DNA of 63,424 nt from assembly GCA_024401355.1 (NCBI GenBank), contig JAKSLF010000015.1:1-63424 (forward strand). The letters are read 5' to 3'. The notes beneath the pieces were generated by a model. The model saw nothing but the letters and a program-made list of their open reading frames with translations, did no database searches and had not been told where the DNA came from. This stretch comes from Bacteroidales bacterium. GTDB lineage: Bacteria; Bacteroidota; Bacteroidia; Bacteroidales; Marinilabiliaceae. Shown one piece after another: positions 43,003-56,397 of the stretch; within the stretch, counting starts at the first letter, position 1, and each line of letters begins with the position of its first letter. A program made the position numbers and the translations under genes.

Positions 43003-44286
43003 ATGAAATTTTATAGTACAAACAACCGTGAGCATGTTGCAGATCTCAAGACAGCAGTCTTGAAGGGACTTGCACCAGACAAGGGTCTTTATATGCCAGA
43101 GTCGATCCCTGTACTTCCACAGAAGTTTTGGGATGAGTTGCCTGGCAAGAGCATGGGTCAGATAGGCTTCGAAGTGTTGAAGCATTTCTTCTGCCCAGAC
43201 ATTCCAGAAGACAGATTTAAGGCTATGGTAGAGGATGCATTCAACTTCCCTGTACCAGTAGTTAAGGTCAACGACCGCATATCGGTCTTGGAGTTGTTCC
43301 ATGGACCAACATTGGCATTTAAGGATGTCGGTGCTCGTTTCTTGGCACGTGTAATGGCATATTTTGCTGATTACGGTGGAAAGAGCATCAATGTTTTGGC
43401 TGCAACATCTGGTGATACAGGTTCGGCAGTTGCCAATGGATTCCTTGGCGTACCAAACGTTTATGTACACGTGCTTTATCCACATGGATTGGTCAGCAAG
43501 TTGCAGGAGTTGCAGTTTACAACTCTTGGTCAGAATGTAACTGCTTATGAAGTAAGCGGTGTATTCGATGACTGCCAGCGTACTGTCAAGGAAGCATTCA
43601 TGGACAAGGCTCTTAATGCTGAGAAGATATTGACATCGGCCAACTCAATTAATTTGGCACGATTCTTGCCTCAGAGTGTGTATTACTTCCATGCATTGGC
43701 ACAGATACCAAAGGAGAAGTGGAGTCAGGTTGTCATCTCGGTACCAAGTGGTAACTTTGGCGACATCACAGCGGGTCTTATCGCCTACAAGATGGGTATG
43801 CCAGTTAAGCGCTTTATTGCTGCAATCAATGCAAATAAGGTGTTTGCTGACTACTTGACAACAGGTACATATAAGCCACAGCCTTCGGTAGCTACAATCG
43901 CAAATGCAATGGACGTAGGTGACCCAAGCAACTTCGCTCGTGTTCTTGAACTCTTCGGTGGTTCTGTAGAGGAGATGCGTAAGGTTATCAGCAGCTACAG
44001 CTACACCGATGATAAGATTGGCGCTACAATAGCTGAGGTATACAAGCAGGATGGTTACACATGTGACCCTCATGGTGCTGTTGGCTATGCTGCATTGAAG
44101 GATGGTCTTAAGGAAGGCGAACTTGGTTTGTTCCTCGAGACGGCTCATCCTGCTAAGTTCATAGATACTGTAGAGAAGTTTGCTGGTCATAAGGTTGAAA
44201 TACCAGAGCGTCTCCAGAAGTTTATGGATGGCAAGAAGCAGACAGTTGCTATTGATGCAGACTACAAGAAACTGCAGCTCAAGTAA
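43003..44286 (+). CDS. thrC: Threonine synthase
   Basis: 427 residues, PLP-dependent fold type II. The PLP lysine is K107 in 'FHGPTLAFKDVGARF'. Also present are 'NVLAATSGDTGSAVANGF' and 'VISVPSGNFGDITAGLIA' (phosphate-binding Gly loop). It converts O-phosphohomoserine to threonine. Cotranscribed with the ApgM-type kinase. A diverged relative (cysteate synthase) lies at 52837. Confidence 0.95.
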   Translation: MKFYSTNNREHVADLKTAVLKGLAPDKGLYMPESIPVLPQKFWDELPGKSMGQIGFEVLKHFFCPDIPEDRFKAMVEDAFNFPVPVVKVNDRISVLELFHGPTLAFKDVGARFLARVMAYFADYGGKSINVLAATSGDTGSAVANGFLGVPNVYVHVLYPHGLVSKLQELQFTTLGQNVTAYEVSGVFDDCQRTVKEAFMDKALNAEKILTSANSINLARFLPQSVYYFHALAQIPKEKWSQVVISVPSGNFGDITAGLIAYKMGMPVKRFIAAINANKVFADYLTTGTYKPQPSVATIANAMDVGDPSNFARVLELFGGSVEEMRKVISSYSYTDDKIGATIAEVYKQDGYTCDPHGAVGYAALKDGLKEGELGLFLETAHPAKFIDTVEKFAGHKVEIPERLQKFMDGKKQTVAIDADYKKLQLK

Positions 44287-47176: not shown

Positions 47177-48043
47177 ATGAAAGTTATGAAACACTCTGCA
47201 ATCGTGGCGTTGGCTATGCTCATGGCTAGTTGTGCTGCAAAAAACAACACTAATCAGGAATCTGCTGACGAGGCCGCTTCAGCAAATGCTGCTGAATTGA
47301 CATCAACAGTAATATGTCGTACAGATGACGGCTCGCAACTTATATGGGTCAAGGATAATGAAGGTGACAAGAAGATGGACAGAAAGCTCTTTCCTGATGC
47401 ATCTGACGAATTGATATCTGAACTTGGCTTTGCAGATGGTGTTCCATCGTCAATAAGTGTCTTCTACGTAGAGAATAACGATGAGTGGATGCTTTTTGAT
47501 GCTGGCTTGGGCAAGAATATGGGTGGTAAGGCTATGACAGATAGTGTGGCAGGTCTGGATAGGAGTAAAGTCAAGACAGTATTCCTTACGCATTTTCATC
47601 TTGACCACATAGGTGGTATGCTTGTGGATGGTGAAAAGACATATCCTGATGCTAAGGTCTATGTGTGCAAGAATGAGTATGACTATTGGATGAAGGAAGC
47701 CGATGAGGAAAGCAGCAAGATGCAGCGTGATGTTATGACGAAATATAATGACAACCTCGTGTTCTTTAACTGGGGTGATGAACTGCCAGGAGGTGTAAAG
47801 GCTATAGAGGCACCTGGTCATACACCTGGTCACACCGTATTCCAGAAGAGCAATGTTCTCATCATTGGTGACCTTATGCATGGCTACGATTTGCAGAAAG
47901 ATCATCCAGAGATTAGTTGTAATTTTGATATGGACAAGACTTTGGCTGCGGAGTCGAGAGTCAAGATACTCAACTATGCCAAGGAGAATAACCTTGTGAT
48001 GGTCGGCATGCATCAGCCTGCTCCTGCTGCATGTGAGAAGTAA
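47177..48043 (+). CDS. Metallo-beta-lactamase-fold hydrolase lipoprotein
   Basis: 288 residues. A lipoprotein signal ends M-A-S-C (residue 19), with a second Met at position 4 as an alternative start. The zinc motif is 'VFLTHFHLDHIGGML' (HxHxDH), followed by 'EAPGHTPGHTVF' and 'LIIGDLMHGYDL', and a final His in 'MVGMHQPAP'. The fold is shared by lactonases, glyoxalases and sulfatases; the N-terminal arrangement is closest to quorum-quenching-lactonase-like exported enzymes, but the substrate is unknown. Confidence 0.85.
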   Translation: MKVMKHSAIVALAMLMASCAAKNNTNQESADEAASANAAELTSTVICRTDDGSQLIWVKDNEGDKKMDRKLFPDASDELISELGFADGVPSSISVFYVENNDEWMLFDAGLGKNMGGKAMTDSVAGLDRSKVKTVFLTHFHLDHIGGMLVDGEKTYPDAKVYVCKNEYDYWMKEADEESSKMQRDVMTKYNDNLVFFNWGDELPGGVKAIEAPGHTPGHTVFQKSNVLIIGDLMHGYDLQKDHPEISCNFDMDKTLAAESRVKILNYAKENNLVMVGMHQPAPAACEK

Positions 48044-48118: not shown

Positions 48119-48126
48119 TATCTTTG
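48119..48126 (+). promoter_or_regulatory. -7 box for the surE-lpxB-gldFG-cysteate synthase operon
   Basis: TATCTTTG. The first ATG is only 13 bp beyond, so transcription may start almost at the codon; a second in-frame ATG lies at 48158. I see no other good box before the end of the run at 56141. Confidence 0.5.
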
Positions 48127-48139
48127 TGAGTTATAACAA

Positions 48140-48931
48140 ATGGCGTACAGTAAAACTATGAATGGAACTAGACCAATGATAATGATATCGAACGACGATG
48201 GCATCAGGGCTAAAGGCATCAAGGCGTTGGCAGAGGTGGCGTCGAAGTATGGGGACGTGGTTGTCGTGGCTCCTGATGGGTCGTATTCTGGACAGAGTCA
48301 TTCGATGACTGTCGGTGCAGCTCTGCGACTGTCGGACTATGACATGGGAATAGATGGTGTTGAAGGAATGATGGTTGGTGGTTCGCCTGTTGACTGCATA
48401 AAGCTCGGTTATCATTTAGTTGACCGTAAGCCTGACTTGATATTGTCGGGTATAAATCATGGTTCGAACACATCGTCGAGTGTTCATTATTCTGGTACGC
48501 TTGGTGCTGTTAGGGAAGCAGCCTTGCTTGGAGTCAAGGGCGTTGGTTTTTCGGTGTCGGATTATAGTGAAGATGCTGATTTCTCTGAAGCGAAGAGGGT
48601 TGCTGACATTGTTATCGCATGGGCATTGACAGACGCTTGCAAGAAGGGTGTTTTCTATGGCGTCAATGTGCCTGTGGTTGATAAGGTGAAAGGCATCAAA
48701 CCTGTTAGACTTGCTGGCGGCTTCTGGCGTGAGGATTATCATTGTGCAGAAGATCCGTGGGGCGAGAAATACTATTGGTTGGTTGGTACATTCGTTGATA
48801 CGACTAAAGGTGCTACAGACACAGATGAATATTGGTTGTCGCAGGGGTATGCTACCATCTGTCCTTGCAAGATAGATGTTACCGACTATAGTGAACTGGA
48901 GCAAATGACAGAAACCTCATTTAATAACTGA
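48140..48931 (+). CDS. surE: 5'/3'-nucleotidase SurE
   Basis: 263 residues. 'PMIMISNDDGIRAKGIKAL' carries the two catalytic Asp of the SNDDG motif. Also 'VVAPDGSYSGQSHSMTV' and 'LILSGINHGSNTSSSVHYSGTLGAVREA' (metal and phosphate contacts; shown in part). It dephosphorylates nucleoside monophosphates. The start could equally be ATG 48158 (MNGTRPMIM), which is closer to the family's usual N-terminus. First gene of a tightly packed run of seven. Confidence 0.93.
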   Translation: MAYSKTMNGTRPMIMISNDDGIRAKGIKALAEVASKYGDVVVVAPDGSYSGQSHSMTVGAALRLSDYDMGIDGVEGMMVGGSPVDCIKLGYHLVDRKPDLILSGINHGSNTSSSVHYSGTLGAVREAALLGVKGVGFSVSDYSEDADFSEAKRVADIVIAWALTDACKKGVFYGVNVPVVDKVKGIKPVRLAGGFWREDYHCAEDPWGEKYYWLVGTFVDTTKGATDTDEYWLSQGYATICPCKIDVTDYSELEQMTETSFNN

Positions 48932-48933
48932 TC

Positions 48934-49230
48934 ATGACCATAAATAAGACATCATACGGGGTAGTGCTTGGAATGATTTTGCCACTCCTTACCTCATTTG
49001 GCTTTTTCTATTTTGGTGTTTCAGCGGGAACATCGTGGACTGATTTTTTCAGCTGGCTTGTAAAGATTAATTTTGCTTCGTCGCTGTTTGCTGTGAGTGC
49101 ATTAAGTGATTTGGCATTTTTCATGGGCTTTGCCTATTCCAATAAGATGAATATAGCAAAGGGCATCTTTTTGTCTACACTTTTCTGGGCTATGGTAGTC
49201 GTAGTGTTTAAATTTATCATTCAGGACTAA
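48934..49230 (+). CDS. Small three-helix membrane protein, unknown function
   Basis: 98 residues with about three hydrophobic segments ('VVLGMILPLLTSFGFFYFGV', 'FASSLFAVSALSDLAFFMGF', 'GIFLSTLFWAMVVVVFKFII'). It is wedged between surE and lpxB with gaps of 2 and 1 bp, so it is surely part of the operon. An accessory role in lipid A or envelope synthesis is possible from position only. Confidence 0.75.
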   Translation: MTINKTSYGVVLGMILPLLTSFGFFYFGVSAGTSWTDFFSWLVKINFASSLFAVSALSDLAFFMGFAYSNKMNIAKGIFLSTLFWAMVVVVFKFIIQD

Positions 49231-49231
49231 A

Positions 49232-50407
49232 ATGAAGTATTATATCATAGCCGGTGAACCTTCGGGCGACTTGCATGCGTCTAACCTCATGCGTGGACTG
49301 TATGGCGAAGACCCAGATGCACAGATACGTTTCTGGGGTGGTGACCTGATGAAAGGTGCACTTGACGAAAAAGGTGTCTCTTCTGATGACGATTTTTCTG
49401 GACTTGTGCGTCACTATAAGGATACTGCTGTCATGGGAGCATGGGATGTGCTGACACATTATGGTAAGATTCGCAAGAATTTCAAGACCTGCTACGATGA
49501 TCTGCTGAAGAATAGGCCCGATGTGTTGATTGTCATTGACTATGCTGGATTCAATCTGCCTGTGGCTAAATATGCAAAGAAGAATGGCATTCGTACTTAT
49601 TATTATATAGTACCCAAGACATGGGCTTCGCTTGAAGGGAGAAACAAGAAGTTGAAAGCTTATATGGATAAGCTTTACACGATATTGCCTTTTGAGACGG
49701 ATTATTTTGGCAGCAAGGGACTTGACGTCACTTATTGTGGCAATCCGGTAATGGACGCTATTGAGAACAGGGTCGGCAAGGATGAAAGTTTCGATGATTT
49801 TTGCACTCGCAATGGTCTGGACAAAAGGCCTAAGATCGCATTGGTTGCCGGTAGCCGCAAAGGCGAACTGAAGTATAACTTGCCTGTTATGCTCAAGGCG
49901 ATAGACTCTTTCCCGGACTATCAGTTTGTCATAGCAGGTGCTCCGTCATTTACTTATGACGACTACAGGGAATATATTGAAGGGAACAAGAATGTGACTG
50001 TTGTCTTTGGCGAAACGTATCATCTGATGAGTCATGCTCGTGCAGCTCTTGTAACATCTGGTACCGCGACTCTGGAGACAGCTATATTGAATTGTCCTCA
50101 GGTAGTCGTTTACCTAATGTGGGGCGGATGGTTTAGTAATTGGGTTGCACACATGTTTATGAAGGTTAAGTGGATAAGTCTGGTTAACCTCATCCTGGGA
50201 CGTGAATCTGTCAAAGAGTTATTCCAGAGCGCATATTCGTTTGATAAGATGATAAGTGAGTTAAAGGCACTTACATCCGAGTCGGAAGAAAGACACAAGA
50301 TGCTGTCTGACTATGATGAACTTCGTGAAAGAGTTGGTGGTCCTGGCTGTAGTGTACGTGCTGCCCGTGCTATGGTGGCCGATTTGAAAGATACAATAAA
50401 AAAATAA
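49232..50407 (+). CDS. lpxB: Lipid-A-disaccharide synthase
   Basis: 391 residues, GT19. 'YYIIAGEPSGDLHASNLMRGL' at the start, 'ALVAGSRKGELKYNLPVML' (usually GSR..E), and 'ALVTSGTATLETAILNCPQVVVY' at the UDP-sugar site. It condenses lipid X with UDP-diacylglucosamine on the inner membrane. Operonic with surE and the gldFG gene. Confidence 0.95.
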   Translation: MKYYIIAGEPSGDLHASNLMRGLYGEDPDAQIRFWGGDLMKGALDEKGVSSDDDFSGLVRHYKDTAVMGAWDVLTHYGKIRKNFKTCYDDLLKNRPDVLIVIDYAGFNLPVAKYAKKNGIRTYYYIVPKTWASLEGRNKKLKAYMDKLYTILPFETDYFGSKGLDVTYCGNPVMDAIENRVGKDESFDDFCTRNGLDKRPKIALVAGSRKGELKYNLPVMLKAIDSFPDYQFVIAGAPSFTYDDYREYIEGNKNVTVVFGETYHLMSHARAALVTSGTATLETAILNCPQVVVYLMWGGWFSNWVAHMFMKVKWISLVNLILGRESVKELFQSAYSFDKMISELKALTSESEERHKMLSDYDELRERVGGPGCSVRAARAMVADLKDTIKK

Positions 50408-50417
50408 AGATAAAGCA

Positions 50418-52826
50418 ATGTATAGTCTGTTCAAGAAAGAGATATCAACCTTCTTCTGCTCACTTACGGGCTACCTTGTGGTTGCTGTATTCCTTGTTGC
50501 AACTGGAATATTCCTATGGGTCGTTCCAGGCGAGCTAAACATCTTATATGGTGGATATGCAACTCTCGAGCCGTTGTTTGGCATCGCACCATGGATCTAT
50601 CTGTTCCTTGTCCCTGCCATATCGATGCGCCTCATAGCGGAAGAAAAGAAGCAGGGCACTCTTGAACTCTTGCTCATTCGTCCATTGACAACTCTGCAGA
50701 TTGTCTCGGCAAAATATTGGGCTGGTCTTGCTCTCGTTGTAATAAGCATACTGCCTACGCTTGTATATCTGTTTGTCGTATGGCAGTTGGGTGATCCTGT
50801 CGGCAATGTCGATATGGGTGCAACCTGGGGCTCTTATATAGGCTTGCTCTTGCTTGCTGCCGTATATATGGCCATTGGTGTTTTTGCGTCGTCAATCACC
50901 GACAACCAGATTGTTGCTTTTGTGACGGGTGTGGCTCTTTGCTTCGTTTTTTATACTGGCTTCGACTCTATTGCTTCCATCCCTGCGATGAAGAGTGTGC
51001 AGGATATGGTGTCGCTTTGTGGTATAAGTAGCCATTACGACAGTATTTCACGTGGAGTGATGGATAGCCGTGATGTAGTATACTTTGTGTCTGTGGCGGC
51101 TTTTTTTATCATCATTACTTCGATGATAATAAGCAGACGAAGTGTGAAATGGAGCAGATGGGGAATGGTTGTCGCTTCGCTCGTGGCGGTCAACTTCATT
51201 GGCTCCAAAGTGCATTTCAGAGTTGACCTTACATCTGAGGGACGATTCACGTTGTCAGAAATAAGCAGGAGATATCTTGGAAATCTCGATAAGGATGTGG
51301 TCGTGAAACTTTATCTCGATGGAGAACTCAATCCAGGCTTCACTCGTCTCAAGAAGGCCGCCAGTGAGATGCTCGACGAACTCGACGAGTGTGCCAATAA
51401 GAATATTTACCACTTGACCATTAATCCTTCATCCATGACTCCCAAGGAGTATGAAGCTCTCAACAATGATTTGGCAGAGCAGGGAATGGGTGGTGTGCCA
51501 GTTTTTGAGACAAAGGAGGATGGTCAGAAAACACGCACGGTGGTCTATCCGTATGCTGAGGTGTCGCTTGGAGACAAATATACTTGGGTTAACCTTTTGG
51601 AGAACATTCCTGGTTTGTCAAGCGATGAAAATCTCAACAGGTCTGTTGAAGATATAGAGTACAAGATAGTCGATGCTATACGTAGGGTTGAGTCGGAAGA
51701 GAAACCTAGAGTGGCATTCCTTGAAGGACATGGCGAGTTGGATGAACTGGATGTTATGGAAGCTACTGATGCGTTGTCTCACTATTTTGCTGTCGATCGA
51801 GGTAGGATAGGCAACGATGCTTCTATTCTTGATCCTTATAAAGTTATTATCGTAGCCAAGCCTGCTGACAAATTCAGCGAGCAGGAGAAGTTTGTTATCG
51901 ACCAGTATGTTATGCGTGGCGGTAGAGTTATGTGGCTTGTCGATGCGGTCAACATGACGTTGGACACTCTCCGCAATTCCCCACATACGGTAGGGCTTTA
52001 TGCTGATTTCAATATTGAGGATATGCTCTTTGTCTACGGTGTGAGAGTTAATCCTGAGGTTGTTGAGGATATTAATTGTGGTATGGTGCCAGTCAGCGTT
52101 CAACAGCCGGGTGAGGGTACTAAGCTTGTGCCTATGCCATGGCACTTCAGTCCTCTGTTGTCAACCAATACGGTTCATCCTATTACAAGGAATGTTAGTC
52201 TGGTTAAGGGTGATTTTACAAGCCATATAGACACAGTCGGTGAAGGACTTGATATGGTTAGGATACCGTTGCTGCGAACATCTTCATACACTAAAGTCGA
52301 CAAGGCTCCCGTTATGGCATCTTTGGCCAATATTCATCAGAAGCCGGTGCAGAGCGAATATAATAGAAGTCATCTGGACGTGGCACTCCTTGAGGATGGA
52401 ATTTTCCCTTCAGTCTTCGCACATCGAAAGGTACCTGCCGGTATCAAGTTTAATGGTGAAATAAAAAAGGAGAGTGTTCCGACCAGAATGATTGTGGTCG
52501 CTGACGGTGACATCATTCGCAATGACGTCCGTTTCCGCGATGCACAAAATCCTAAGATTGTTCCCCTAGGTTATGACGAACTTTCAAGGCAAACTTTCGG
52601 CAACAAGGATTTTATCATCAATGCAGTTCAATATCTTGCCGACGATGAAGGGTGGATGACTTTGCGTAACCGCAATTTTACTCTTCGACTCCTTGATAAG
52701 AAGAAGTTGGGCGACGGAACAACGGAATGGAAGGTGCTTGCTGTGGCTATGCCACTTGTTGTACTTGCCGTGGTTTTCGGAGGTGTCGTTGTGTGGCGTC
52801 GTAGGAAGTATGGGAAATTGAAATAG
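50418..52826 (+). CDS. Fused GldF-GldG-type ABC transporter membrane protein
   Basis: 802 residues. Residues 1-240 are an ABC-2 permease of the GldF type: 'YSLFKKEISTFFCSLTGY', 'FLVPAISMRLIAEEKKQGTLELLLIRP' (in part) and six helices. Residues about 245-802 are GldG-like: one helix, then 'FRVDLTSEGRFTLSEISRRYL' and a long periplasmic ABC_transp_aux domain with 'RVAFLEGHGELDELDV', and a C-terminal anchor helix before 'RRRKYGKLK'. In Flavobacterium GldF and GldG are separate proteins that, with ATPase GldA, are needed for gliding. No gldA lies in the window. The transported substrate is unknown. Confidence 0.88.
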   Translation: MYSLFKKEISTFFCSLTGYLVVAVFLVATGIFLWVVPGELNILYGGYATLEPLFGIAPWIYLFLVPAISMRLIAEEKKQGTLELLLIRPLTTLQIVSAKYWAGLALVVISILPTLVYLFVVWQLGDPVGNVDMGATWGSYIGLLLLAAVYMAIGVFASSITDNQIVAFVTGVALCFVFYTGFDSIASIPAMKSVQDMVSLCGISSHYDSISRGVMDSRDVVYFVSVAAFFIIITSMIISRRSVKWSRWGMVVASLVAVNFIGSKVHFRVDLTSEGRFTLSEISRRYLGNLDKDVVVKLYLDGELNPGFTRLKKAASEMLDELDECANKNIYHLTINPSSMTPKEYEALNNDLAEQGMGGVPVFETKEDGQKTRTVVYPYAEVSLGDKYTWVNLLENIPGLSSDENLNRSVEDIEYKIVDAIRRVESEEKPRVAFLEGHGELDELDVMEATDALSHYFAVDRGRIGNDASILDPYKVIIVAKPADKFSEQEKFVIDQYVMRGGRVMWLVDAVNMTLDTLRNSPHTVGLYADFNIEDMLFVYGVRVNPEVVEDINCGMVPVSVQQPGEGTKLVPMPWHFSPLLSTNTVHPITRNVSLVKGDFTSHIDTVGEGLDMVRIPLLRTSSYTKVDKAPVMASLANIHQKPVQSEYNRSHLDVALLEDGIFPSVFAHRKVPAGIKFNGEIKKESVPTRMIVVADGDIIRNDVRFRDAQNPKIVPLGYDELSRQTFGNKDFIINAVQYLADDEGWMTLRNRNFTLRLLDKKKLGDGTTEWKVLAVAMPLVVLAVVFGGVVVWRRRKYGKLK

Positions 52827-52836
52827 GTGTGGAGCG

Positions 52837-54141
52837 ATGATGGAGCCAACAGGATATCTTCTTCAGTCAGCAGTTAGTGGTAAGTTGTATGCCGATAATG
52901 GATGGATGCTTGATTCGGGTGAGGACGGGCAAGGCCTGTTGTGTAGTGTCTATGACAGCACGCAGCTGACCGACCGCGGAGCCTCTGCTGGCTTGTTCCG
53001 ATTTGCTGATTGGCTGCCAGTCTCTCGTGTTGTTCCTAACTCTAACTCTCCTGTGACATATAAGAGTACTGCATTGGCAGCCAGGCTCGGCCTTGAAAAT
53101 CTCTGGATCACTTTTAGTGGCTATTGGCCAGAAAAGGGTGCGGCGATGTCGACGTGCTCATTCAAGGAGACTGAAGCATATAGTGTGATAAGCCGACTTC
53201 GTCCGGATGAGAAAAAGATTTTGGTCGTCGCTTCTGCAGGTAATACGGCCAGAGCTTTCGCTCGTGTATGTTCCGACAATGACGTTCCGGTGATTATATG
53301 TATTCCAGCAGACAATCTGGGTGCTTTATGGTATGACCGCCCAATCGCTCCGTGTGTCAAGGTCATTGCCACTCAGCATGGTAGTGATTATGCTGACGCC
53401 ATCGAGTTGGCTGATGTTATTTGTAGGATAAGTGGCTCGGCGGTCGGTGTCGATGGTTTTATTCCAGAAGGTGGTGCAAAACATATAGCTCGCAGAGGTG
53501 GTATGGGTACTACGGTTCTCTCCGCTGCAACTACCATCGGACGGATTGCTGATGGCTATTTTCAAGCAATAGGTAGTGGCACAGGTGCAATTGCCGCATG
53601 GGAGGCTAGTAAAAGGCTGCATGCCGACGGACGTTTCGGTACGAATGTTATGCGACTTATGTTGTCGCAGAATGCTCCATTTACACCTATATATGATGCT
53701 TGGTGCGCAGGAACTAGAGACCTTGCTCCCGTTTCTCCCGAGAAAGCCAGAATGTATGAAAAGCAGATAATGGCGCCAGTGTTGGCCAATCGACGTCCGC
53801 CTTATTCAATTGCTGGTGGTTTATATGATGCGTTGACAGCCACAGGTGGGAATGTAGCAAGCATATCTAATGATGAGGCTTGTCGAGCAGGTGCTCTTTT
53901 TGCGGAAAGCGAGGGTGTCGATATTTGTAGTGCGGCGTCTGTTGCTGTGGCATCACTTGTTAAGGCAGTTGCCAATGGCAGTATAACCTCTGATGAGGTC
54001 ATTATGCTTAATGTGACTGGCGGTGGTGAAGTCCGTTATCGAAATGAACATGTGACTACTTCGATGCGCCCAGATAGAATTGTGGATGCAGGCTATAAGT
54101 ATGATGATATAGTCGATGTGGTCAAATCTCTCTTTGTGTAG
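52837..54141 (+). CDS. Cysteate synthase (threonine-synthase-like PLP enzyme)
   Basis: 434 residues, PLP fold type II but distinct from ThrC. The N-terminus 'YLLQSAVSGKLYADNGWML' and the segment 'FADWLPV' match what I recall of Bacteroidota cysteate synthases. The PLP lysine is K110 in 'GAAMSTCSFKETEAYSVI'; also 'VVASAGNTARAFARVCSDNDVP' (in part) and 'QAIGSGTGAIAAWEA'. The enzyme makes L-cysteate from phosphoserine and sulfite. Cysteate is the head-group precursor of capnine-type sulfonolipids, and in methanogens of coenzyme M. It follows gldFG by 10 bp and precedes the ATP-grasp-like gene by 3 bp. Confidence 0.85.
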   Translation: MMEPTGYLLQSAVSGKLYADNGWMLDSGEDGQGLLCSVYDSTQLTDRGASAGLFRFADWLPVSRVVPNSNSPVTYKSTALAARLGLENLWITFSGYWPEKGAAMSTCSFKETEAYSVISRLRPDEKKILVVASAGNTARAFARVCSDNDVPVIICIPADNLGALWYDRPIAPCVKVIATQHGSDYADAIELADVICRISGSAVGVDGFIPEGGAKHIARRGGMGTTVLSAATTIGRIADGYFQAIGSGTGAIAAWEASKRLHADGRFGTNVMRLMLSQNAPFTPIYDAWCAGTRDLAPVSPEKARMYEKQIMAPVLANRRPPYSIAGGLYDALTATGGNVASISNDEACRAGALFAESEGVDICSAASVAVASLVKAVANGSITSDEVIMLNVTGGGEVRYRNEHVTTSMRPDRIVDAGYKYDDIVDVVKSLFV

Positions 54142-54144
54142 GTC

Positions 54145-55188
54145 ATGATACTTGTTTATAATCCCACTTGCGAACTGGCAGTTCAACATGATACGGTCAA
54201 TTATCAGCCTGCAAAACATCTGATGGATTTCGAGAGACGTTATGGCGCTTTGATGATGTTTTTGGCTGGTGAAGGTGACGCGGTGGTTGCTGACTGCCCT
54301 GGAAGGCAAGAACTAGATTTTTGGAAGGAGCGCGGTGTCGCAATCCCCGAGTTCATAGACCGTGCGGAGGCTCGTCGCCGTATTGCTAATGGTGAGCATC
54401 TTAAGCCATGGGGCATGAGCAGGGAGGTGCTCTATAGGTTCGGCGGACATGCTCTCTCTGATGGCTTTAATGATCAGCATAGGCGATTGTTTTCTCGATT
54501 GACTTCTGTTGCGGTTGATGATGCATTGGCTTCGGCGGAACTGCCTGATTTCTTTAGGGAAGAAGTCCGTCCTCGTATAGTCGATGATGTTGACATGCTG
54601 CCAGAACTGGTTGGTGATGGTATGTGTGTGTTGAAGACACTGTGGAGTGCTTCTGGACGTGGTGTGTCGCTGGTCTCACGGCCCGAATTTGTCAAGCCTG
54701 CTATAGCCCGTTTCTCTGCCAATGTTCGTAATGACGGTGCTGTGGTCTGGGAGCCTTTGCTCGACAGAGTTGTCGATTTCGCCATGTTGTTTGAAGTTTG
54801 TCCTGATGGTAATGTTGTATATCTTGGTAAAAACTATTATAGGTCTGACGAAGCTGGCCGTTTCGGAGTTGAACTAATAGGCTACGATCCGATTCACCAA
54901 TATGTTGAGGCTGGTTTGGTCCCTGCTGACTGGGAGCAGATAGCTTCCGAAAAACTCAGATGTGCCATTTCTCAGTCTGTAAGTCCGTTATTGTATGTCG
55001 GACCAGTTGGCGTTGATTCTATGCTCTACAGGAGAAAGAGTGGTGAAATGGCGATAAGGCTGTGCATCGAAGCCAACGTGCGTCACAGCATGGGCAATGT
55101 TAATATGCGTATCGCAAAATGTTTTGAAGGTGAGAGTCTGGAATGGACTCTCGGAGATGAAAGTTTGATTAAAATATTAAAGAGATGA
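54145..55188 (+). CDS. Uncharacterised ATP-grasp-like protein
   Basis: 347 residues. The opening 'ILVYNPTCELAVQHDTVNYQP' resembles an uncharacterised Bacteroidota family that begins 'FNPE.D.AL'. ATP-grasp signs are 'VLKTLWSASGRGVSLVS' (Lys and Gly-rich flexible loop), 'VVWEPLLDRVVDFAMLFEV' (E..L...D..) and 'CIEANVRHSMGNVNMRIAK' (Mg-binding E-x-N near the end). Such folds join a carboxylate to an amine or thiol at the cost of ATP. Between a cysteate synthase and a transporter, cysteate or a derivative is a possible substrate; that is inference only. 4-bp overlap with the next gene. Confidence 0.65.
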   Translation: MILVYNPTCELAVQHDTVNYQPAKHLMDFERRYGALMMFLAGEGDAVVADCPGRQELDFWKERGVAIPEFIDRAEARRRIANGEHLKPWGMSREVLYRFGGHALSDGFNDQHRRLFSRLTSVAVDDALASAELPDFFREEVRPRIVDDVDMLPELVGDGMCVLKTLWSASGRGVSLVSRPEFVKPAIARFSANVRNDGAVVWEPLLDRVVDFAMLFEVCPDGNVVYLGKNYYRSDEAGRFGVELIGYDPIHQYVEAGLVPADWEQIASEKLRCAISQSVSPLLYVGPVGVDSMLYRRKSGEMAIRLCIEANVRHSMGNVNMRIAKCFEGESLEWTLGDESLIKILKR

Positions 55189-56141
55189 ATAAGATTGTTG
55201 CGTTGTTGAAGAATTGGACACTTCCGATATCTATGTTGACAGGTGTGTTGATATACCTGGCATTTGCCCATCTTGATTTTTTACAGCCGGCTAAGCCTGC
55301 CGTAAAGGCTATCGATAAGGTCTTGACTCCGTTGCTTATTTTTGTGCAGTTGTTGTTAACTTTCTGTAAGGTCAACCCAAGAGAGTTCCGTTTCCGTACT
55401 TGGCATTTTATTTTGATGGGCATCCAACTTGTCGGGAGTGTGCTGGTCTATTTTGCTATTGCTCCTATAAGTCCCATTGTGGCCCAAGGAGCTATGGTAT
55501 GCTTCATCTGTCCTACTGCTACCGCCGCTGCTGTTGTTACCTCCAAACTGGGTGGCAGTGCCGAGACGCTCATCACGTATACTATGCTGATTAATATTTT
55601 GTGCGCTATCTTTGTGCCGTTGGTCTTCCCGCTGATTCATGAGACTGATGGACTGACGTTCTGGCATGCGTTCCTTCTGATATTGTCTAAGGTATTCCCA
55701 TTGCTTATTTGCCCTTTCATTCTTGCGCAACTGTTGCGATGGTTGTGGCGTTCTGCTCATGTTTTTCTGAAGGAGCATGCTTCTTTAGCCTTTTATATTT
55801 GGGCAGTGGCATTGGCCATGGTGATGGGAAAGACTGTTAAGTCTGTGGTCGACGATTCCGACAATCTCCAGCTTGTCTTCTGGTTGGCTTTCGTGAGTCT
55901 CGTTATTTGTTGCTTTCAGTTTTTCATCGGTAAGAGAGTTGGCGGCTATTATGGCGACAGGATTAGTGGTGGTCAGGCAATAGGGCAGAAAAATACGGTG
56001 CTTGCTATTTGGATGGCGTTTACCTATCTTGAGCCGATAACCTCAGTAGCCCCTGGAGCTTACGTCCTGTGGCAGAACACAATCAACTCTTGGCAATTGT
56101 GGAAACAAAGGAAGAGGGCGGCAGCTTCAAATCCAAGATGA
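55185..56141 (+). CDS. BASS-family (bile acid:sodium symporter-like) transporter
   Basis: 318 residues with nine to ten hydrophobic helices. 'LTPLLIFVQLLLTFCKVNPREFR', 'MVCFICPTATAAAVVTSKLGGSAE' (in part; the crossover region that binds Na+ in the family) and 'GQAIGQKNTVLAIWMAFTYLEP' support the BASS fold. Substrates in the family are organic acids, including sulfonates such as taurocholate. Last gene of the run; it overlaps the ATP-grasp-like gene by 4 bp. Confidence 0.75.
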   Translation: MNKIVALLKNWTLPISMLTGVLIYLAFAHLDFLQPAKPAVKAIDKVLTPLLIFVQLLLTFCKVNPREFRFRTWHFILMGIQLVGSVLVYFAIAPISPIVAQGAMVCFICPTATAAAVVTSKLGGSAETLITYTMLINILCAIFVPLVFPLIHETDGLTFWHAFLLILSKVFPLLICPFILAQLLRWLWRSAHVFLKEHASLAFYIWAVALAMVMGKTVKSVVDDSDNLQLVFWLAFVSLVICCFQFFIGKRVGGYYGDRISGGQAIGQKNTVLAIWMAFTYLEPITSVAPGAYVLWQNTINSWQLWKQRKRAAASNPR

Positions 56142-56173: not shown

Positions 56174-56204
56174 TTGCACAATAAAAATAAACATACTACC
56201 TTTG
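56174..56204 (+). promoter_or_regulatory. Promoter for the CAU tRNA
   Basis: -7 box TACCTTTG at 56197-56204, TTG at 56174-56176, 20-bp spacer, 47 bp before the tRNA. Confidence 0.6.
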
Positions 56205-56251: not shown

Positions 56252-56325
56252 GCCGAGATAGCTCAGCTGGTTAGAGCGCAGGATTCATAATCCTGAGGTC
56301 GAGGGTTCAAGCCCCTCCCTCGGTA
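56252..56325 (+). tRNA. tRNA with anticodon CAT (elongator Met or Ile2)
   Basis: A 74-nt cloverleaf: D-arm AGCTCAGCTGGTTAGAGC, anticodon stem CAGGA/TCCTG around loop TTCATAA (anticodon CAT), T-stem GAGGG/CCCTC with TTCAAGC loop, discriminator A, no encoded CCA. It is not initiator tRNA (no GGG/CCC anticodon stem). Whether it is methionine or lysidine-modified isoleucine tRNA cannot be told here. The acceptor stem has a G-T first pair and an A-C mismatch at its seventh pair. Confidence 0.9.
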
Positions 56326-56397
56326 CTTTTTGAAAGCCTTGGAATCAATAGATTCTGAGGCTTTAAATTTATATGTTGTCCCTTCTTTTGACGTTGT

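Follow-up and report, generated by a model that had tools for sequence, protein, structure and literature searches.

Cysteate synthase downstream of a surE-lpxB-gldFG block in a Bacteroidales bacterium and its likely link to sulfonolipid synthesis

Cysteate synthases of the TIGR03844 family were first described in methanogens, in the route to coenzyme M. Within the Bacteroidota, Alistipes and Odoribacter are described in a review as relying for sulfonolipid on a homolog of the archaeal enzyme and not on a CapA homolog (PMC10191378), and Radka and colleagues name Lys281 as the one clear active-site difference of the acyltransferase SulA from serine palmitoyltransferase (SPT) (PMC9304779). For the gliding-type genes, the locus description in PMC5682007 places gldG upstream of dnaN in Flavobacterium psychrophilum. 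Here we consider a run of seven genes, surE, a small membrane protein gene, lpxB, a gldF-gldG fusion, a cysteate synthase gene, an ATP-grasp-like gene and a BASS-like transporter gene, in a Bacteroidales bacterium of the Marinilabiliaceae (GCA_024401355.1). The window, meaning the whole stretch of 63,424 nucleotides that was analysed, is contig C7 (JAKSLF010000015.1) of the host assembly, which comprises 2.92 Mb in 69 contigs and is 85% complete. Genomes were compared within the genus (15, host included), the family (71), a sample of the order (295) and 14 controls (G, L and C numbers are our own handles for genomes, loci and contigs).

A first-pass annotation of the window had proposed that the run couples envelope lipid synthesis with cysteate. 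This survives in part: cysteate supply is supported by SulA and its co-variation with the synthase, and the linkage of lpxB with gldFG is real, whereas a coupling to GldFG is not borne out. The genes encode ordinary enzymes in an unusual order; the operon-like run is real and its link to sulfonolipid is likely. We consider it probable that the synthase supplies cysteate for SulA, and thereby for sulfonolipid, from a three-piece unit assembled within this lineage, and that no direct link with GldFG is needed.

The cysteate synthase gene (52837..54141, + strand), of the archaeal or Alistipes type, scores 466 bits with the TIGR03844 model (cysteate_syn) and 35 bits with the thrC model, and 489 bits against the solved cysteate synthase 9k3c. 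The curated cut-off of 324.9 bits was used for TIGR03844 calls because the model matches 12 of the 14 control genomes at E 1e-3 and just one over the cut-off. By this measure the synthase is present in 48/71 family and 80/295 order genomes. Its predicted pyridoxal phosphate (PLP) lysine, assigned by the FKE motif, is residue 110, and a lysine stands there in all 63 aligned rows. A misnamed threonine synthase was ruled out, the true ThrC being encoded separately at 43003-44286 (296 bits with thrC). Of 14 named relatives with 50-59% identity, three come from spirochaetes and the others are records of Bacteroidales or Bacteroidia. Judged by its family and its homology to the solved enzyme, the protein would convert O-phosphoserine and sulfite to L-cysteate, which we take to be the reaction of cysteate synthases.

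An enzyme that could use this product is encoded elsewhere in the genome. It is a SulA homolog on contig C13. This protein scores 581 bits against the solved Alistipes finegoldii SulA (7u7h) and 541 bits against 28eh, a second solved cysteate-C-fatty acyltransferase; its score against the serine palmitoyltransferase 3a2b is 218 bits. It keeps Lys281, the PLP lysine Lys251, Asn53, His140 and Arg376, and also two positions that we added, the Asp and His (labelled H225) of the DDAH motif, so that all seven checked positions are intact. As a control, two SPT-like proteins of the family have Ala at the Lys281 position. All seven positions are intact at 55 of the 61 SulA loci that were examined, and the other six belong to the genus members with changed residues listed below. 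Homology, the intact active site and co-variation suggest that the host SulA would join cysteate with an acyl chain from acyl carrier protein to give 3-ketocapnine, the first lipid intermediate of sulfonolipid, and reduction and N-acylation by further enzymes would then follow.

The distribution of the two genes carries much of the argument. SulA was called present at E 1e-100 or lower in the order sample, and at E 1e-60 or better in the genus. In the order sample it occurs in 76 of the 80 synthase-positive genomes and in 133 of the 215 others (Fisher p 1.3e-9, uncorrected for kinship). Within the genus the synthase is over the cut-off in three of 15 genomes (G000, G350, G353), and all three have a canonical SulA, 82-100% identical to that of the host. 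Five of the 12 genomes without synthase have no SulA at the genus threshold (G351, G355-G358), six have a homolog changed at catalytic positions, and one (G354) has a homolog that keeps all seven checked positions and is diverged in sequence. G347, G352 and G348 carry Asn in place of His140 and Glu in place of Lys281; G346 and G349 carry Asp in place of Asn53, Gln in place of His225, and Asn in place of both Lys251 and Lys281; and G359 carries Asp in place of Asn53 and His in place of Arg376. Since completeness is 91% or more in six of these 12 genomes, the absence of the synthase reflects more than missing sequence. On a tree of LpxB and GldFG, the presence of the synthase requires six changes among 25 genomes. 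This is the pattern that would be expected if the synthase feeds SulA. With both enzymes encoded and co-varying in the genus, a cysteate-based lipid is therefore likely in the host, and its supply with cysteate by this synthase is well supported by the sequence comparisons.

Several observations weigh against this interpretation. SulA lies outside the operon, on another contig, and no SulA was detected in four of the 80 synthase-positive order genomes (G046, G099, G156, G164). At least six genomes of other genera (G029, G345, G324, G297, G337, G341) keep a canonical SulA with no TIGR03844 match over the cut-off, so another source of cysteate must exist there, perhaps a CapA-type enzyme. The altered SulAs may share one origin, in which case the co-variation within the genus may amount to few events; in the tree they form one side of a branch with support 53/51, and at that support independent degeneration on each branch of the genus is neither shown nor rejected. 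G348 carries a TIGR03844 relative of 83 bits, under the cut-off. None of 62 relatives exceeds about 60% identity to the window synthase. Between the window and G353 (L090) identity is 82% for SulA, 70% for LpxB and 72% for GldFG, and 55% for the synthase, which must therefore evolve fast or have been replaced. On a tree of LpxB and GldFG, the presence of the synthase requires six changes among 25 genomes.

It could also be argued that the product of the TIGR03844 protein goes into a soluble sulfonate, such as sulfopyruvate or a coenzyme M-like product, and not a lipid. The methanogen origin of the family speaks for this, but SulA is present and co-varies with the synthase, and we regard the soluble product as very unlikely. 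TIGR03844 matches are of two types. Sub-cut-off relatives, defined in the order sample as matches from 4.7e-42 to 7.7e-24, without anything weaker and without the fragments in G110 and G282, occur in 55 genomes, none of which is among the 80 with a canonical synthase. An absolute mutual exclusion of the two types was nevertheless rejected, as the family genome G361 carries a match over the cut-off plus one of 135 bits. The positions of SulA were available, among the matches listed, for 27 of the 47 genomes having both a sub-cut-off relative and SulA; in 11 of these 27 (G001, G041, G056, G069, G085, G104, G108, G115, G145, G167, G288) a relative of 94-130 bits lies within 10 kb of SulA, and in three of the 11 at a distance of 39-184 bp. 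These relatives are possibly a second, CapA-like type of cysteate synthase.

Absence of the synthase in sister species is accompanied by a second arrangement, which we consider a stronger side finding. Of the seven genus genomes that have a SulA homolog and lack the synthase, six (G348, L246; G349, L247; G346, L248; G354, L251; G347, L253; G352, L254) carry a gene of about 400 codons directly after the homolog, at 8 bp or overlapping it. These open reading frames (ORFs) were called mechanically, and their sequences fall into a single cluster. Family scans covered four of the six products, each of which scores over the cut-off of PagL (PF09411). Five of the six SulA homologs beside a PagL-family gene have altered catalytic residues, two of them lacking the PLP lysine. 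The exception is G359, in which no PagL-family gene directly follows the altered SulA. Directly downstream of SulA no PagL-type gene was found in G000, where the contig leaves 0.7 kb, or in G350, G353 and G299. Three pairs of altered SulA copies gave ratios of nonsynonymous to synonymous substitution rates (dN/dS) of 0.03-0.09, values that are rough because dS is near saturation (1.5-2.5). This suggests, roughly, that the altered copies have been kept. A literature search, by title only, found nothing joining sulfonolipid with PagL in such operons.

The first piece of the unit is an envelope block that is conserved across the family, surE-(membrane protein)-lpxB-gldF-gldG. In the window it spans 48140-52826, all on the + strand: surE, a 5'/3'-nucleotidase gene (48140..48931; PF01975 168 bits, TIGR00087 over cut-off); a gene for a 98-residue membrane protein of no named family (48934..49230); lpxB, for lipid-A-disaccharide synthase (49232..50407; PF02684 228 bits, TIGR00215 over cut-off); and the gldF-gldG fusion, for an ABC permease joined to a substrate-binding-like protein (50418..52826; TIGR03518 325 bits and TIGR03521 507 bits, both over cut-off). 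The family scans thus agree with the names first given to surE, lpxB, the fusion and cysteate synthase. Among 26 gldFG loci surveyed (L221-L240, the window, L090, L104 and L263-L265), 22, the window included, have no more than 1.5 kb between lpxB and gldFG. The misses are L226, L236, L264 and L265, and the contig of L265 ends about 0.7 kb upstream of gldF. Loci with the block come from L221-L240, L090, L104 and L263 besides the window. Of the 22 lpxB-gldFG loci, 15 have a homolog of the small membrane protein between surE and lpxB. The linkage is not universal, as gldG beside dnaN in F. psychrophilum indicates, and our literature search found no paper combining gldF, gldG and lpxB.

Whether the transporter has anything to do with the sulfonate is a separate question. 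The first-pass annotation suggested that a cysteate-derived sulfonate may be made, modified and moved by the products of the operon, as possible cargo or regulator of GldFG. The genes do share a strand with tiny gaps, and in three genomes with synthases of one clade (G000, G353, G299) no more than 10 kb separates the synthase from gldFG. Against this, GldFG, fused or split (split genes being found in many relatives), occurs in 67/71 family genomes, including genomes without synthase or SulA, as compared with 48/71 for the synthase; all five genus genomes without SulA retain gldF and gldG; and only three of the 47 family genomes with both synthase and gldFG have them no more than 10 kb apart. 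The distributions of the ATP-grasp-like and BASS genes, given below, also speak against it, as may the lack of a GldA-strength or SprA match in the host. In the 85% complete host assembly the best GldA match is 5.7e-49, while 68/71 family genomes reach 5e-111 or better (48 of them over the cut-off); the GldA model matches all 14 controls and is over the cut-off in none. SprA was not found in the host at that completeness, and is present in 68/71 family genomes and in none of the 14 controls. These two gaps may reflect incompleteness of the assembly. Taken together, we find the role of cargo or regulator most improbable.

A different place for the transporter is conceivable, in which the conserved envelope block reflects a part of GldAFG in outer-membrane lipid traffic, the synthase was recruited to that block for a joint rise of sulfonolipid and lipid A, and in sister species that had lost the synthase SulA became a protein of altered catalytic residues, or without the lysine, that acts together with a PagL-like lipid deacylase. 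The cargo would then be a lipid A-pathway or other envelope lipid and not sulfonolipid, because GldFG persists in genomes without sulfonolipid. We think this unlikely.

The order of the seven genes was found in the window alone among the genomes searched, so that its conservation finds no support. This result also favours the possibility that the run is a lineage-specific neighbourhood with no meaning beyond shared transcription, the synthase, ATP-grasp-like and BASS genes having landed behind the envelope block. Forty-four other synthase loci are without any other gene of the operon (30 with flanks of up to 1.5 kb and 14 with up to 10 kb as far as the contig reaches), and none was found in 14 further family loci (L105, L107-L119) over about 9-10 kb on each side where the contig allows. 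In G353 the synthase stands upstream of surE and is divergent from it, while in G000 and G299 it is on the same strand as gldFG. Six more family genomes have synthase and gldFG on one contig, more than 120 kb apart, and the remainder have them on different contigs; these linkage counts were made by eye from contig coordinates in the search lists. Three observations speak against a neighbourhood of that kind. Loci L087, L090 and L104 have neighbours in common with the window. The gldFG-linked synthases of G000, G353 and G299 form one clade across two genera (support 96/66, and 100/98 for the window with G353), which suggests one old linkage that was kept beside the block through rearrangement; the G350 synthase falls elsewhere in the tree, where long branches call for caution. 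Lastly, the ATP-grasp-like gene directly follows the synthase in all three synthase-positive genus genomes. A neighbourhood without further meaning is possible, and a weightier alternative than the others, yet we hold it to be less likely than a unit that supplies cysteate for sulfonolipid.

The third piece, the ATP-grasp-like and BASS genes, would merely ride along and would not be specific to cysteate. The ATP-grasp-like protein (54145..55188, + strand) has no Pfam or NCBIfam match of its own; the domain is hinted at by the homolog L098 (PF02222 25.1 bits, under the cut-off of 27) and by a profile that finds PurT weakly (E 3e-4). In 21 homologs K164, S168, G171-G173, N311, R313, M316 and G317, among others, are invariant. 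Homologs occur in 66/71 family and 74/295 order genomes, and in no family genome outside the genus that has both genes does one adjoin the synthase, by contig coordinates. In the order sample SulA is found in 23 of the 74 genomes with a homolog and in 186 of the 221 without. At 20 order loci no neighbour was common to different family groups (at L220 the gene was left unlabelled by the simple ORF caller). A dedicated sulfonolipid gene was ruled out by this negative association and by neighbours shared just within family groups, and the gene most likely encodes a general ATP-grasp ligase with no substrate assigned. Its distance from SulA is 0.3-1.6 kb in G319, G321 and G322, and about 5 kb (up to 5.3) in G082 and G186. 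A shorter version stands in a constant gene order at L088, L092, L093 and L095 (G351, G355, G356, G358), in genomes without SulA, beside phosphoglucomutase-like and rRNA methylase-like genes, named from a look at their sequences.

The BASS/SBF-like transporter gene (55185..56141, + strand) is identified by PF13593 (35.5 bits, cut-off 25), with PF01758 (22.1 against 24.3) and TIGR00841 (25.4 against 326.3) under their cut-offs. It is present at 65% identity or more in 15/15 genus genomes, where one copy is partial and another is interrupted by a stop, and it occurs in 21/71 family genomes; in every genome except the window's the contig coordinates place it apart from the synthase and the ATP-grasp-like gene. 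Since all 15 genus genomes have it and three have the synthase, a cysteate carrier was ruled out. In G002 an ATP-grasp gene and a BASS gene of 41% identity lie about 0.5 kb apart, which was taken as probable chance. A tRNA-Met gene follows BASS in G353 as in the window (56252..56326, + strand); the two form a separate pair in G353, so that the window brings together two neighbourhoods between the ATP-grasp-like gene and BASS. The idea that the ATP-grasp-like protein modifies a sulfonate which BASS then moves fails on these distributions, both genes occurring without the synthase. As the seven-gene order is not conserved and neither gene tracks the synthase, the run is best described as a lineage-specific composite operon.

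Its features as a transcription unit are otherwise as first annotated. The ORF coordinates agree exactly with seven same-strand genes at gaps of 2, 1, 10, 10, 3 and -4 bp, and from this spacing the genes probably form a single transcription unit. A TAnnTTTG box, presumably of the Bacteroidota -7 type, is present ahead of surE at 48119..48126 (+ strand), a consensus match that by itself is no proof of function. As the + strand of the window holds 37 such boxes, the single box is weak evidence. Between 47,900 and 56,400 the other + strand copies begin at 47920, 49068, 55337, 55607 and 55794, all within genes, and at 56197. This last, the first outside genes after the surE box, precedes the tRNA-Met, and the unit therefore likely ends after BASS. 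Terminator-like matches on the + strand of the run all lie inside genes; the scan gave 29 matches in 16 kb and 12 in shuffled sequence. At most, a shared promoter would tie cysteate supply to lipid A synthesis. Just upstream of surE (47177-48043) is a gene for a lipoprotein-like protein with a metallo-beta-lactamase fold, whose nearest model, an AidB-type lactonase, is matched far below cut-off.

The combination of the synthase with a Lys281 SulA provides a gene-based test of whether an uncultured lineage makes sulfonolipid, and the analysis separates real from accidental gene partners. The linkage of lpxB with gldFG is a lead on the function of the GldAFG transporter, and the SulA-PagL operons of the sister species let one follow, as a natural experiment, what becomes of a lipid enzyme after the supply of its substrate is lost.

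Comparison with described systems places the host close to the sulfonolipid pathway of A. finegoldii and Odoribacter, which comprises an archaeal-type cysteate synthase, SulA and a ketocapnine reductase, and with which it shares a SulA with Lys281 and, going by the description in PMC10191378, the synthase type. The host synthase stands at the end of a surE-lpxB-gldFG operon. Methanogen cysteate synthase belongs to the same TIGR03844 family, and a different end product is expected of it. With the CapA/CapB/CapC capnine pathway of Capnocytophaga the host would have in common the condensation of cysteate with an acyl donor to 3-ketocapnine; the relevant passage of PMC10191378 treats the Alistipes and Odoribacter enzyme as a distantly related, archaeal type in comparison with CapA. 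The gldF and gldG genes of Flavobacterium are of the same families and adjacent, whereas in the host they are fused and follow lpxB, and in F. psychrophilum gldG comes before dnaN in the locus as described (PMC5682007).

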